Below, piece after piece: positions 11,462 through 36,965 of a DNA stretch of 64,000 nt. Numbering within the stretch: the stretch's first letter is position 1; each line of letters starts with the position of its first letter. The stretch is from the NCBI RefSeq assembly GCF_024204665.1, contig NZ_CP100355.1, forward strand, positions 3,577,451 through 3,641,450, read 5' to 3'. The position numbers and the translations under genes were made by a program. The DNA is from Natronosalvus rutilus. GTDB lineage: Archaea; Halobacteriota; Halobacteria; Halobacteriales; Natrialbaceae. The notes beneath the pieces were generated by a model. The model worked only from the letters and a program-made list of their open reading frames with translations. It searched no databases and was not told the DNA's origin.

Positions 11462-11947
11462 TCACCGGAACACTTCGTATCGGAGGAGATAGCGAACCAC
11501 TCCGAGCAGGTACGCCAGCAGCCAGAAGAACACGTAGCCGAAGACGCCCACCCGGAGTCGCCGTCGCCAGGCGCCCATGTGCTCGTGGAGGTCGTCGAGG
11601 TCAATGTCTTGTCCGGGGTCGCCGTAGAGGTCGTGGGTGAGTTTGACCTGGAGTATGCGAACGATCCCGGTCAGCGCGACGAGTAACATCGCGTACGCCT
11701 GAAGCCCAAAGAACGCGTGCACGGCCGCCAGACCGCTTATCTGCTCGAGCACCCGCGGTGCCATCCAGAGGAGGACGGGAATCGTGTTCAAAGTCAGGCC
11801 CACGGCGATGACCTTCAGGTGGTAGACCAGGACGTCCCAGGTGACGATTTCCGTGTCGATCATGATCCAGGCGCCGTAGAGATAGAAGGGAAAACTGGCT
11901 GTGACCATCACGAGCGCGACGGTGGCCGTCGCCAGCTCAGAGACCAT
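11462..11947 (-). CDS. Four-helix membrane protein of unknown function
   Basis: The 161-residue protein has about four hydrophobic segments (5-25, 45-63, 75-98 and 135-155). It opens MVSELATATVALVMVTASFPFYLYGAWIMID, and the loop after helix three contains LTHDLYGDPGQDIDLDDLHEHMG. I recall a haloarchaeal family (perhaps DUF7321) like this but cannot verify it. It ends convergently 16 bases after the GYD-like gene. No cofactor motif is evident. Confidence 0.75.
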   Translation of the reverse strand: MVSELATATVALVMVTASFPFYLYGAWIMIDTEIVTWDVLVYHLKVIAVGLTLNTIPVLLWMAPRVLEQISGLAAVHAFFGLQAYAMLLVALTGIVRILQVKLTHDLYGDPGQDIDLDDLHEHMGAWRRRLRVGVFGYVFFWLLAYLLGVVRYLLRYEVFR

Positions 11948-12402
11948 ACTGGGTGTCGGGAGGGTGAACGAATAAACGAAGCGAAAGCGTTCGGAGGCGC
12001 CGCCGGGTTAGTGGCTTCTCGGGTTCGAGGACCCTCGAGAGTGAGGTCGATCCGGATCTTCGTGAACGAAACGGGTGTTCACCGGACGTGAAATGCAACT
12101 TGACGCGGTACGTGAACGTCGCCCGACGCAGAACGTGAAACGCCACTGGACGTGGAACGTGAAACGCTACTGGACGTGGAACGTGAAACGTTACTGGACA
12201 CGGAACGGAAACATGGCCAGATGCGAGACGTGGAACGTTTCCGAACGGGGAGGGAGACCGTACCTCGAGGAAATCGGAGAGTCCCCCTCCGTAAATTGGA
12301 CGTACTCGCGGTTCTCGCCTTAGAACGCGACGGGGACACGGCCTCCACCTCGCGGACGGCAATCGGGGTCGCGTCGGACCGCCTTGCGGGGCGGAAACGC
12401 CG
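11948..12402. other. 455-base intergenic region with a tandem repeat
   Basis: No convincing gene is visible. The region holds a 24-base tandem repeat (12084-12238). Open readings cross it on both strands because the repeat length is a multiple of three, but they are low-complexity, overlap real genes or lack promoters. Confidence 0.7.
12084..12238. repeat. 24-base tandem repeat, three good and about three decayed copies
   Basis: Three copies at 12131-12154, 12155-12178 and 12179-12202 share GAACGTGAAACG and then C/TACTGGAC. A diverged copy precedes them at 12084-12107, a 23-base copy at 12108-12130, and a broken copy with a longer unit follows at 12203-12232. The repeat lies between two minus-strand genes. 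Confidence 0.9.
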
Positions 12403-12765
12403 TCATGCCACGCCGGCGTTTTCGTCGCACTCGGTGGACTCGTGGAACGCCCTGGATGCCTCGAGCACTGGATGGTCCCGCCGTCTGACGTGATTGCTCC
12501 GCTCGTCGTACTCGAGGAGACCGACGTTGGCTAATTTCGGAAGTCCGGCGTGGTGCAGGTAGATCTGGGCATCTCGCGACGATTCCGCCGCGCAGTCGAA
12601 CTGGCCGTCGACAATGTAGTCGGCGAGATCGTCGAGCGAGGCGACGTCGTCGGTGCAGCGGTGGAAGTAGTCTACCACTCCACGGGTGTACCCGTTCGAG
12701 AGTATGGATTGCAGATCGTCGATCGTCTCGGGGTCGAACTCGTCCTCGAGGGTTGGTCTCGACAT
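12403..12765 (-). CDS. DUF7344-type winged-helix protein
   Basis: The 120-residue protein has the pattern of the haloarchaeal HTH family I know as DUF7344: an N-terminal helix pair (IDDLQSILSNGYTRGVVDYFHRC), then SLDDLADYIVDGQFD, and the recognition-like region AQIYLHHAGLPKLANVGLLEYDERSNHVRRRD. These proteins often lie near other regulators, as here with a bacterio-opsin-activator-type gene 72 bases upstream. Its targets are unknown. A second member of the same family lies at 24250-24654. Confidence 0.8.
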   Translation of the reverse strand: MSRPTLEDEFDPETIDDLQSILSNGYTRGVVDYFHRCTDDVASLDDLADYIVDGQFDCAAESSRDAQIYLHHAGLPKLANVGLLEYDERSNHVRRRDHPVLEASRAFHESTECDENAGVA

Positions 12766-12837
12766 GGCCTAGTTTGGCGTATTTGATCCATGGAGAAAGG
12801 AGTCATTATTGTTGAGACAACCCTCTTAAGACGGGGC

Positions 12838-13497
12838 TCAGTCGAAGTCGGCTGCAGTCGAGAGTAATATCTCACTGAGCACCTGTTTCGTGCCCCGACG
12901 AACGCGATTGGAGACGGCCTGCTGGGAGATGCCGAGTTCGTTCGCGAGTTCGTCCAAGCTCGCCTCGCTCGGCGTGTCGAAGTAGCCGCGACGGAGTCCG
13001 AGGACGAGGGCTTCGCGTTGCTCGTCGGAGAGGCCGAACTGATGGACGCTCTCCGTTCGCTCGGTGACCGTGTAGGTTCGGTTAATGTGGATAGAGATGC
13101 CGCTGTCGGTGGTGTAGTTGTGAAACTGTGAGAGTTTGTCGTGGTCCGGGAATCGAACGTGGAACTCCCAGCCGCCGTTGCTGAAAGCCTGTAATACCGT
13201 CCCCTGTGCGTCCGTGATCCCCCGGATCAGGTCGGTGTGATCGTCGTGCCACGTGACGCGGTACAGAACCGCGTTCTCGACGCGGTCGATGGCGATGATG
13301 TCCTCGACGAAGCGGTGCGAGACGACTTTCTCCTCGAACGAGGCGTAGTCCTCACCTGACACCCACAGAAACGGCATTGCGGAGGTTCCCGTGGGCACGA
13401 TCCGCTCGAGTTCGATGCGCATCGACGGCGGCCCGGACAGCACCTGCCCGAGGGTGAACTGGTCGTTCTCGACGGTAAACTCCAGCGTGACGCTCAT
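12838..13497 (-). CDS. Bacterio-opsin activator-type (HTH-10) regulator
   Basis: The 219-residue protein combines an N-terminal sensor-like region (about 1-150) with the C-terminal HTH-10 module: LSDEQREALVLGLRRGYFDTPSEASLDELANELGISQQAVSNRVRRGTKQ. This is the Bat-type DNA-binding domain of haloarchaea. No PAS or GAF domain is obvious, as in many short paralogues. Its role cannot be tied to one regulon; the next gene downstream on the same strand is the DUF7344-type protein. The start ATG at 13497 is divergent from the DUF7319-like gene. Confidence 0.88.
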   Translation of the reverse strand: MSVTLEFTVENDQFTLGQVLSGPPSMRIELERIVPTGTSAMPFLWVSGEDYASFEEKVVSHRFVEDIIAIDRVENAVLYRVTWHDDHTDLIRGITDAQGTVLQAFSNGGWEFHVRFPDHDKLSQFHNYTTDSGISIHINRTYTVTERTESVHQFGLSDEQREALVLGLRRGYFDTPSEASLDELANELGISQQAVSNRVRRGTKQVLSEILLSTAADFD

Positions 13498-13649
13498 TGC
13501 TAGCCGACGGTATCACGGCCACGTACGTATTGGTGTTGCCTGATACCACGTCCCCGCTCTCACCCCGGTCAGAGATGATTCGGCGGCACCACCATTGCTG
13601 TCAGCGAACGTCGCGGCGCTTATGCGGCTACGGGTCCCATCGTCGAACG

Positions 13650-14468
13650 ATGACCGACGCTTCGGACGAACCGTCCGCCGGCCGAACGACCGAGCCGTCG
13701 GCCGACCCTGCGGCGACGGGAGACGACGACCAGTCCGTCGAGGATCTCCGCCGACAGGTCGAGGCGAAGTACGACTTCGAGGACTTCAGCGAGGCCGACA
13801 TGGCCGAGATAAGCCCGGAGGAGTGGGACGTCGCCTTCGACGCGGACACCTGGATCACCGGCGACGAACTCCTTGAGCGCGTCGAGCGGGAACTCAAAAC
13901 CCGGATCGCCTACCGGGAGGTGTTCGCGATGCTCGAGTACGCCGTCGTCGACGGCCGACGAAGTCTCGTGGCCTATTCCGACACCGATTACGCGATTATC
14001 TTCCCGGACGGGACCGTCGAGGGTCGCGGAACGGTCGTTCGCGACGTCAAACCCACGGTCGCCCTGTGCTCGATGGAGAGCTACGACGTCGAGGAACCAC
14101 CCGCCGATTGGCACCTCCCCGAGCCCGCCGACCTCGCAGGCGAACACAGCGAACTCGGCAACTGGATGCTCCAGTTGCTAGCGATTGCACAGCTCGTCAT
14201 CGGGGTCGTCGCGATCGGAATCTGGCTGGTTCAAGGCATCCAGTCTCAGCTCGTCCTCGGCGTCGTGGGCGTCGTACTCGTCGTCATCTCGCTCGTGCTG
14301 TTCTTGATGGTGGCGAACGCCCGACTCTCGGATCGATTCCGGACCGAAGCGTACGAGTCGCGTCTGCGAACGATCGGCTCCGGGGATCGACCCTCGTTTC
14401 TCCCCATCGACGACGAGGCCTTCGAGCGCGACGCACCGCCCCGAAATCGGTCGCCGCTCGAGGAGTAA
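13650..14468 (+). CDS. Unknown membrane protein beside the bc complex (DUF7319-like)
   Basis: The 272-residue protein has an acidic N-terminus, a soluble domain (about 30-170, with DFEDFSEADMAEISPEEWDVAFDADTWITGDELLERVE) and two membrane helices (about 175-198 and 200-225) followed by a cytoplasmic tail. I recall it as DUF7319, found beside the haloarchaeal cytochrome bc genes, but that is unverified. ATG at 13650 is preferred because GCTTATGCGG, about 28 bases earlier, is a plausible TATA box; a longer frame from 13497 overlaps the divergent regulator. It is 75 bases upstream of halocyanin. Confidence 0.75.
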   Translation: MTDASDEPSAGRTTEPSADPAATGDDDQSVEDLRRQVEAKYDFEDFSEADMAEISPEEWDVAFDADTWITGDELLERVERELKTRIAYREVFAMLEYAVVDGRRSLVAYSDTDYAIIFPDGTVEGRGTVVRDVKPTVALCSMESYDVEEPPADWHLPEPADLAGEHSELGNWMLQLLAIAQLVIGVVAIGIWLVQGIQSQLVLGVVGVVLVVISLVLFLMVANARLSDRFRTEAYESRLRTIGSGDRPSFLPIDDEAFERDAPPRNRSPLEE

Positions 14469-14543: not shown

Positions 14544-15212
14544 ATGAAGAGGCGGGAGTTTATAGTAGCGGCCAGCGGCGTGTCTGGGGGTGCCGTAGCC
14601 GCCACTGCTGCGACACCCGTCGTAGCCCAGGAAGAGGAGAACGGTAACGACACCGAAACAGGCGACGGTGGCGGCGGAAACGACACCGAAGCCGGCGGAG
14701 GCGGTAACGAGTCGTCCGGTGGCGGTGGCAACGAGTCAGCCGGCGGTGGCGGCGGAGGCGGCGGCAGCGAAACCGTCGAAGTCGACGACAACGAGTTCGT
14801 TCCCGCGGAGTTGACCATCGAGCCCGGCACTACGGTCACCTGGGAGTGGGTCGGCTCCAACCAGCACAACGTCAACCCCGGAAGTCAGCCCGAGGGCGCG
14901 AACTGGGAAGGCCAGACGGACCTCCAGGCCGAAGGGACCTACGAACACACGTTCGAGACCGAGGGAACCTACGAGTACGTCTGTGATCCCCACGTCAGTA
15001 TTGGAATGACGGGCTCCATCGAAGTGACCTCGGACGCGGGTGGTGGAGGCGCGGCGACCGCCGACGTCGACATCCACGAACTCGGCGTCCCGATCCAGAA
15101 GCACTTCGTCGGCGTCGCGTCGTTCTTCGCGATATTCATCGCCCTCACGTTCACGTTCTACCTGCTGAAGTACGGTGAATCGGCCAACACCAGCAGCCCA
15201 GGGAGGAAATAA
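14544..15212 (+). CDS. Halocyanin-type blue copper protein, membrane anchored
   Basis: The 222-residue protein has a Tat signal (KRREFIVAAS), a long Gly/Asn/Glu linker (about 31-75) and a cupredoxin domain with the type 1 copper ligands His108, Cys147, His150 and Met155 (SNQHNV, YVCDPH, GMTG). A single C-terminal helix (about 190-213, VASFFAIFIALTFTFYLLKYG) would anchor it on the outside. It should carry electrons to or from the following bc-type complex; that link is inferred from position. It is followed after two bases by an overlapping Shine-Dalgarno-like element. Confidence 0.93.
   Translation: MKRREFIVAASGVSGGAVAATAATPVVAQEEENGNDTETGDGGGGNDTEAGGGGNESSGGGGNESAGGGGGGGGSETVEVDDNEFVPAELTIEPGTTVTWEWVGSNQHNVNPGSQPEGANWEGQTDLQAEGTYEHTFETEGTYEYVCDPHVSIGMTGSIEVTSDAGGGGAATADVDIHELGVPIQKHFVGVASFFAIFIALTFTFYLLKYGESANTSSPGRK
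15201..15206 (+). promoter_or_regulatory. Shine-Dalgarno-like GGGAGG before the third respiratory gene
   Basis: GGGAGG lies inside the end of the halocyanin gene, eight bases before the ATG at 15215. It suggests internal ribosome entry within a polycistronic transcript. Confidence 0.6.
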
Positions 15213-36839: not shown

Positions 36840-36859
36840 ACCCGCTCGCGCGAGCGGGT
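36840..36859. repeat. 20-base perfect palindrome
   Basis: ACCCGCTCGC and GCGAGCGGGT join without a loop to form a perfect palindrome. A second, shorter palindrome GCTCGCGCGAGC lies at 36872-36883. Hairpin, terminator or operator roles are all possible. Confidence 0.8.
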
Positions 36860-36889
36860 CATTAACGTGACGCTCGCGCGAGCATCCTG

Positions 36890-36965
36890 CTATGGGACGA
36901 GGAAACTGGAGACCGCTATGAGACGTGAAAATTGAGGACGCTATAGGACGTAAAACTGGAGAATG
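36890..36965. repeat. Three imperfect 25-26-base tandem repeats
   Basis: Each unit begins CTAT and contains GGACG or GAGACG and an A-rich part (GAAACTGGAG, GAAAATTGAG, AAAACTGGAG). Short words (TAGCG, TTTCACGT on the complement) resemble the repeat at 12084-12238. Confidence 0.75.

Follow-up and report, generated by a model that had tools for sequence, protein, structure and literature searches.

A 24-base tandem array between two haloarchaeal genes, most probably an ordinary intergenic minisatellite

The region considered here belongs to a window of 64,000 bases (the whole stretch of DNA analysed), situated on the 3.79-Mb contig C1 of a 4.3-Mb genome, and recognized as haloarchaeal by its DUF7321, DUF7344 and BAT/HTH_10 genes and by the named relatives of DUF7321. 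A short tandem array lies between the DUF7321 and DUF7344 genes, near a BAT/HTH_10 regulator gene and a DUF7319 gene (Table 1). Its position is free of genes, as the initial annotation had proposed: the flanking minus-strand genes start at 11947 and end at 12403, respectively. The hexamer TTTATT, which we take to be a TATA box, is found about 23 bases before the ATG of DUF7321, and also in several relatives.

Table 1. Coordinates of the genes and features at the locus, in window positions.
Feature	Position	Strand	Remarks
DUF7321 gene (PF24007)	11462..11947	-	array 139 bases upstream of its start
DUF7344 gene (PF24035)	12403..12765	-	array downstream of its stop
BAT/HTH_10 regulator gene	12838-13497		beyond the DUF7344 gene, away from the array
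DUF7319 gene	within frame 13497-14468		divergent, beyond the BAT gene
Putative lineage-specific block	~11990..13497	.	array, DUF7344 gene and BAT/HTH_10 gene; edges rough; ~1.5 kb
Whole array	12086..12251	.	7 copies of a 24-base unit, two of them 23 bases long; from TRF, hand cutting and unit similarity along the region
Two decayed left copies	12086..12132	.	12086-12109, 12110-12132; hand cutting and unit similarity
Three near-exact copies	12133..12204	.	12133-12156, 12157-12180, 12181-12204
Two decayed right copies	12205..12251	.	12205-12227, 12228-12251; hand cutting and unit similarity
Block beside the array	12060..12085	.	imperfect inverted repeat GTGAACG..GTTC; well kept in G006 and G007
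Stretch replaced in G007	12094..12379	.	286 window bases replaced by 3 bases

The tandem repeat of 24 bases announced by the initial annotation is borne out by TRF, which detects this period at 12086-12212 and gives it a score of 135, ahead of every other among the 75 rows for the window; the top score in 100 dinucleotide shuffles of the same window was 80. Three nearly exact copies with decayed ones on either side had been described, and this arrangement holds, with two decayed copies to the left and two to the right; the span of 12084-12238 given earlier has to be corrected to 12086-12251. Cut by hand, the copies start at 12086, 12110, 12133, 12157, 12181, 12205 and 12228, and the array ends at 12251, which makes it 166 bases long. 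Similarity to the unit along the region was assessed with a null distribution drawn from the whole window, array included, in which the smallest p values are floors. The G+C content of the array is 56%, compared with 65% for the window.

The unit is confined to one place in its genome. The exact tandem core pattern, which matches the window array, was recovered in one of 125 family genomes, namely the window's own, and another search pattern matched none of 392 genomes, a negative that carries no information on this array, as the pattern missed even the window's own copy of it. Copies abut without spacers, unlike those of a CRISPR locus, a dispersed family or mobile element is rejected by the single genomic place of the unit, and a mobile or viral origin was likewise set aside, searches of plasmids, phages and, with the exact pattern, viral contigs having given no match. 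Tandem repetition is not peculiar to this locus, as 17 places with a period of at least 10 and a score of at least 70, coding and non-coding unsorted, were counted in 400 kb sampled from the genome. These other repeats include a 33-base array of 4.4 copies (score 134, at L082 1476-1619 of the same genome, its position relative to genes unsorted). Within the window, tandem repeats at 14690-14769 fall in a Gly/Asn-rich stretch of the frame of a copper-binding protein of the plastocyanin/azurin family (14544-15212), and are likely an ordinary coding repeat.

The genes around the array are not arranged in the same way in all relatives. A DUF7319 relative is present in 33 of the 38 DUF7321 loci examined, divergent every time, and in 27 of the 31 loci outside G006 and G007, two genomes of the same genus, its first aligned codon lies at most 371 bases from the DUF7321 start (207 and 171 bases in G001 and G002, also of this genus). 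The remaining four of the 31 loci have DUF7319 at 1.1-1.3 kb from DUF7321, and G006 and G007 have it at 1.3-1.5 kb, with the DUF7344 and BAT genes in between. Because DUF7321 and DUF7319 are close to each other elsewhere, and because homology with G001, G002 and G008 ends at about 11986-11989, the block of about 1.5 kb would most simply have been gained by insertion in the lineage of the three species, the array lying near its DUF7321 edge. The BAT/HTH_10 and DUF7344 genes thereby appear as a lineage-specific regulator pair inside a gene pair (DUF7321-DUF7319) that is otherwise kept. A protein search of the genome contigs found no relative of DUF7344, and a literature search found no mention of it.

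Copy-number variation, which the initial annotation had suggested checking in related strains, is seen here between related species. When 61 genomes were searched with 11940-12480, the window's own genome and those of G006 and G007 matched over both flanks, and five further genomes matched a short piece only. At the same place, the array counts seven copies in the window (G000), three in G006 (at L015 1207-1278) and one remnant in G007; the number thus varies between species, each represented by one genome, and supports slippage (or unequal recombination), slippage being the best of the possibilities that the initial annotation offered. Outside these species, no 24-base array with a TRF score of at least 50 was found within 700 bases upstream of DUF7321 in its 33 named relatives, two of which carry a weak array with a repeat length of 15 or 22. 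At the DNA level, the three flanking genes of the window share 93-95% identity with those of G006 and 91-93% with those of G007, and among the three species they are 89-95% identical to each other. As they place G006 slightly closer to the window than G007, the difference seen in G007 fits both a loss in this species and a gain before the split of the window and G006 lineages. The motif CGCC, read in the sequences at both edges of the stretch missing from G007, leans towards a loss.

Taken together, the array is very probably an ordinary intergenic minisatellite, a known kind of repeat, in the DNA between DUF7321 and DUF7319. Minisatellites are made up of units of roughly 10-60 bases repeated head to tail. 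Here the copies follow one another head to tail, and their number differs at the same place from one species to another. Slippage during replication, or unequal recombination, would presumably have duplicated a 24-base stretch head to tail on more than one occasion, with mutation since eroding the older, outer copies. The array is probably neutral, a view with which the comparison of relatives agrees: both G006 and G007 retain the promoter-like region ahead of DUF7321, but the array is not preserved alongside it. Two observations may nevertheless count against so ordinary an origin. The middle copy of G006 (copy 2) shares 23 of its 24 bases with copy 5 of the window, although this is the closest of 21 pairs compared. 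Matches to the unit with at most three mismatches also occur in 24 of 125 family genomes (one match each, the window's genome excepted), compared with 3 of 125 for a reversed control, an excess perhaps explained by the CG-rich composition of the pattern, lost on reversal.

A second array, with a 25-base unit in three decayed copies, is found at 36889-36963, by inspection apparently between genes. Reading of the sequences gives three copies in G000, two in G007 and one in G006, and two palindromic GCTCGCGCGAGC sequences stand directly beside it, at 36840-36886. The units of the two arrays resemble each other on the same strand (GCTA..GGACGTGRAAC), a likeness that 1 of 2000 shuffled pairs attained, as did 3 of 2000 pairs of pieces taken from the window; the p of about 0.001 is uncorrected and applies to one pair chosen after seeing it. 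This shared core may reflect chance or an old shared origin, and would be a further point against an ordinary minisatellite, as a purely random origin does not predict it.

The initial annotation also allowed for a DNA-binding array. Could a protein then bind these copies and act on a nearby promoter or in chromosome organisation, with the core ACGTGAAACG as candidate site? This is unlikely, even though several features are in its favour. By eye, the core ACGTGAAAC is the best kept part among the decayed copies, the second array carries it too, a BAT/HTH_10 regulator gene is nearby, and the array is flanked on one side by a conserved block that contains an imperfect inverted repeat. The pattern of this block occurs in two of 38 loci, those of G006 and G007 only; its similarity to the 24-base unit is weak (p 0.03), and it could possibly be the seed of the array or an operator. 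However, the genes and the promoter-like region persist in G007 alongside a single remnant copy, and this near-absence argues that the array is not needed. The exact GGACGTGAAAC is found twice in the 4.3-Mb genome, in neither case in the window; the window's genome holds 13 degenerate core matches, five of which belong to the two arrays, compared with 17 for the reversed control, and such matches outnumber the control in none of eight genomes of the genus. In seven of the 33 named relatives, the exact 9-mer does occur upstream of DUF7321, at about 500-640 bases, but within a neighbouring open frame (its reverse is found in none of the 33 loci). Since the longest or second-longest open frame reads nearly one peptide through the 9-mer in six of these seven loci, these occurrences are coding and do not represent a shared site. 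The window's own DUF7319 frame holds that peptide, and the seventh locus has much the same flanking bases.

In a broader form of the same idea, both arrays would belong to a small group of regulatory or DNA-organising sites, specific to this lineage and based on the GGACGTGRAAC core. The number of sites would vary by species and tune the genes alongside, in this case perhaps the BAT-DUF7344 pair placed between DUF7321 and DUF7319. This is highly improbable, yet if the shared core were functional, it would offer a case of regulatory sites changing in number by slippage in archaea.

A structured or regulatory RNA produced from the array, the former among the possibilities listed by the initial annotation, finds little to sustain it and is a very remote prospect. 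Compared with dinucleotide shuffles, folding of the minus strand gives a z value of -2.61 when all seven copies are taken (-2.03 in G006), and the core three copies reach -2.65 (plus) and -2.54 (minus); in contrast, the plus strand gives 0.20 for all seven copies (-0.30 for G006). For 12084-12212, the values are 0.32 (plus) and -1.86 (minus), and for 12060-12200, 0.60 (plus). The mild signal vanishes once the control keeps the repeat architecture: column-permuted controls fold as well in 181 of 300 cases on the plus strand and 136 of 300 on the minus strand for all copies, and in 136 of 300 and 192 of 300, respectively, for the core three copies, so that the repeat itself causes the folding effect. 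Within the window, the gathering score is not attained for any Rfam family. The sole match at E of at most 1 in the region (E 0.52) scores 16.9, far short of its cut-off of 72, and covers 12042-12093, for the most part outside the array on its left side. Neither a fold beyond that of repeat-keeping controls nor a known family therefore points to an RNA, and the earlier proposal is not supported.

Little speaks for a coding role, in which the array would be part of a small protein gene with 8-residue repeats; this is barely credible. Four open frames, on both strands, do cross the array (82, 113, 89 and 141 codons), and open frames exist in G006 too, one with similar residues at places. However, over 60 aligned bases (12254-12313) the phase differs between the window and G006 in all four frame pairs, and in-phase intergenic substitutions relative to G006 are flat by codon position (5, 5, 4; 11, 13, 11; 11, 11, 15; 9, 6, 8). 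No Pfam or NCBIfam match at E of at most 0.01 was obtained for any of the four frames, and G007 is without most of the region. Phase breaks and flat substitutions are the grounds for rejecting a coding role, no frame being conserved against G006; the warning that these frames might be mistaken for a gene was right, and the array cautions against annotating open frames across it.

Iterons are typically direct repeats some 20-24 bases long, and the 24-base direct repeats of the array lie within this range, but an iteron-like replication or partition element is extremely improbable. No initiator gene, which would be expected close to an iteron array or archaeal origin, is found nearby: all 21 Orc1/Cdc6-type matches fall outside the window. 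If C1 is circular, the closest of those that pass the family cut-off (C1:2332-3309) is about 200 kb away; if it is not, the closest of all, whatever its strength, is a weak match at a distance of about 314 kb. The array has no match in plasmids or phages, and it is almost lost in G007.

An ordinary intergenic minisatellite thus stays by far the most probable nature of the array. Alone, it has little significance, other than as a small, clear-cut example of how a minisatellite grows and decays between closely related haloarchaeal species, and as a possible typing marker. A literature search covering titles and the beginnings of abstracts found nothing on this repeat. Known systems nevertheless offer points of comparison. 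Deletions associated with direct repeats of 4-20 bases are described between Haloquadratum walsbyi strains (PMC3119063), and the 286 bases absent from G007, with CGCC at both edges, resemble them, so that G007 may plausibly have lost these bases through a direct-repeat deletion of this kind. Unlike the comparison of Haloquadratum strains, the present one is made between species, and the difference could be either a loss or a gain. Concerning satellites of prokaryotes, those described in one study (PMC6749651) are mostly few and short, with rare transposition of the non-coding ones, and the short-repeat satellites of Halobacteria are mostly parts of genes. The present array differs from the latter in being intergenic even though its unit is a multiple of three, and it resembles prokaryotic satellites as described there in its short head-to-tail unit, its few copies, a number that varies between genomes, and its restriction to one place.
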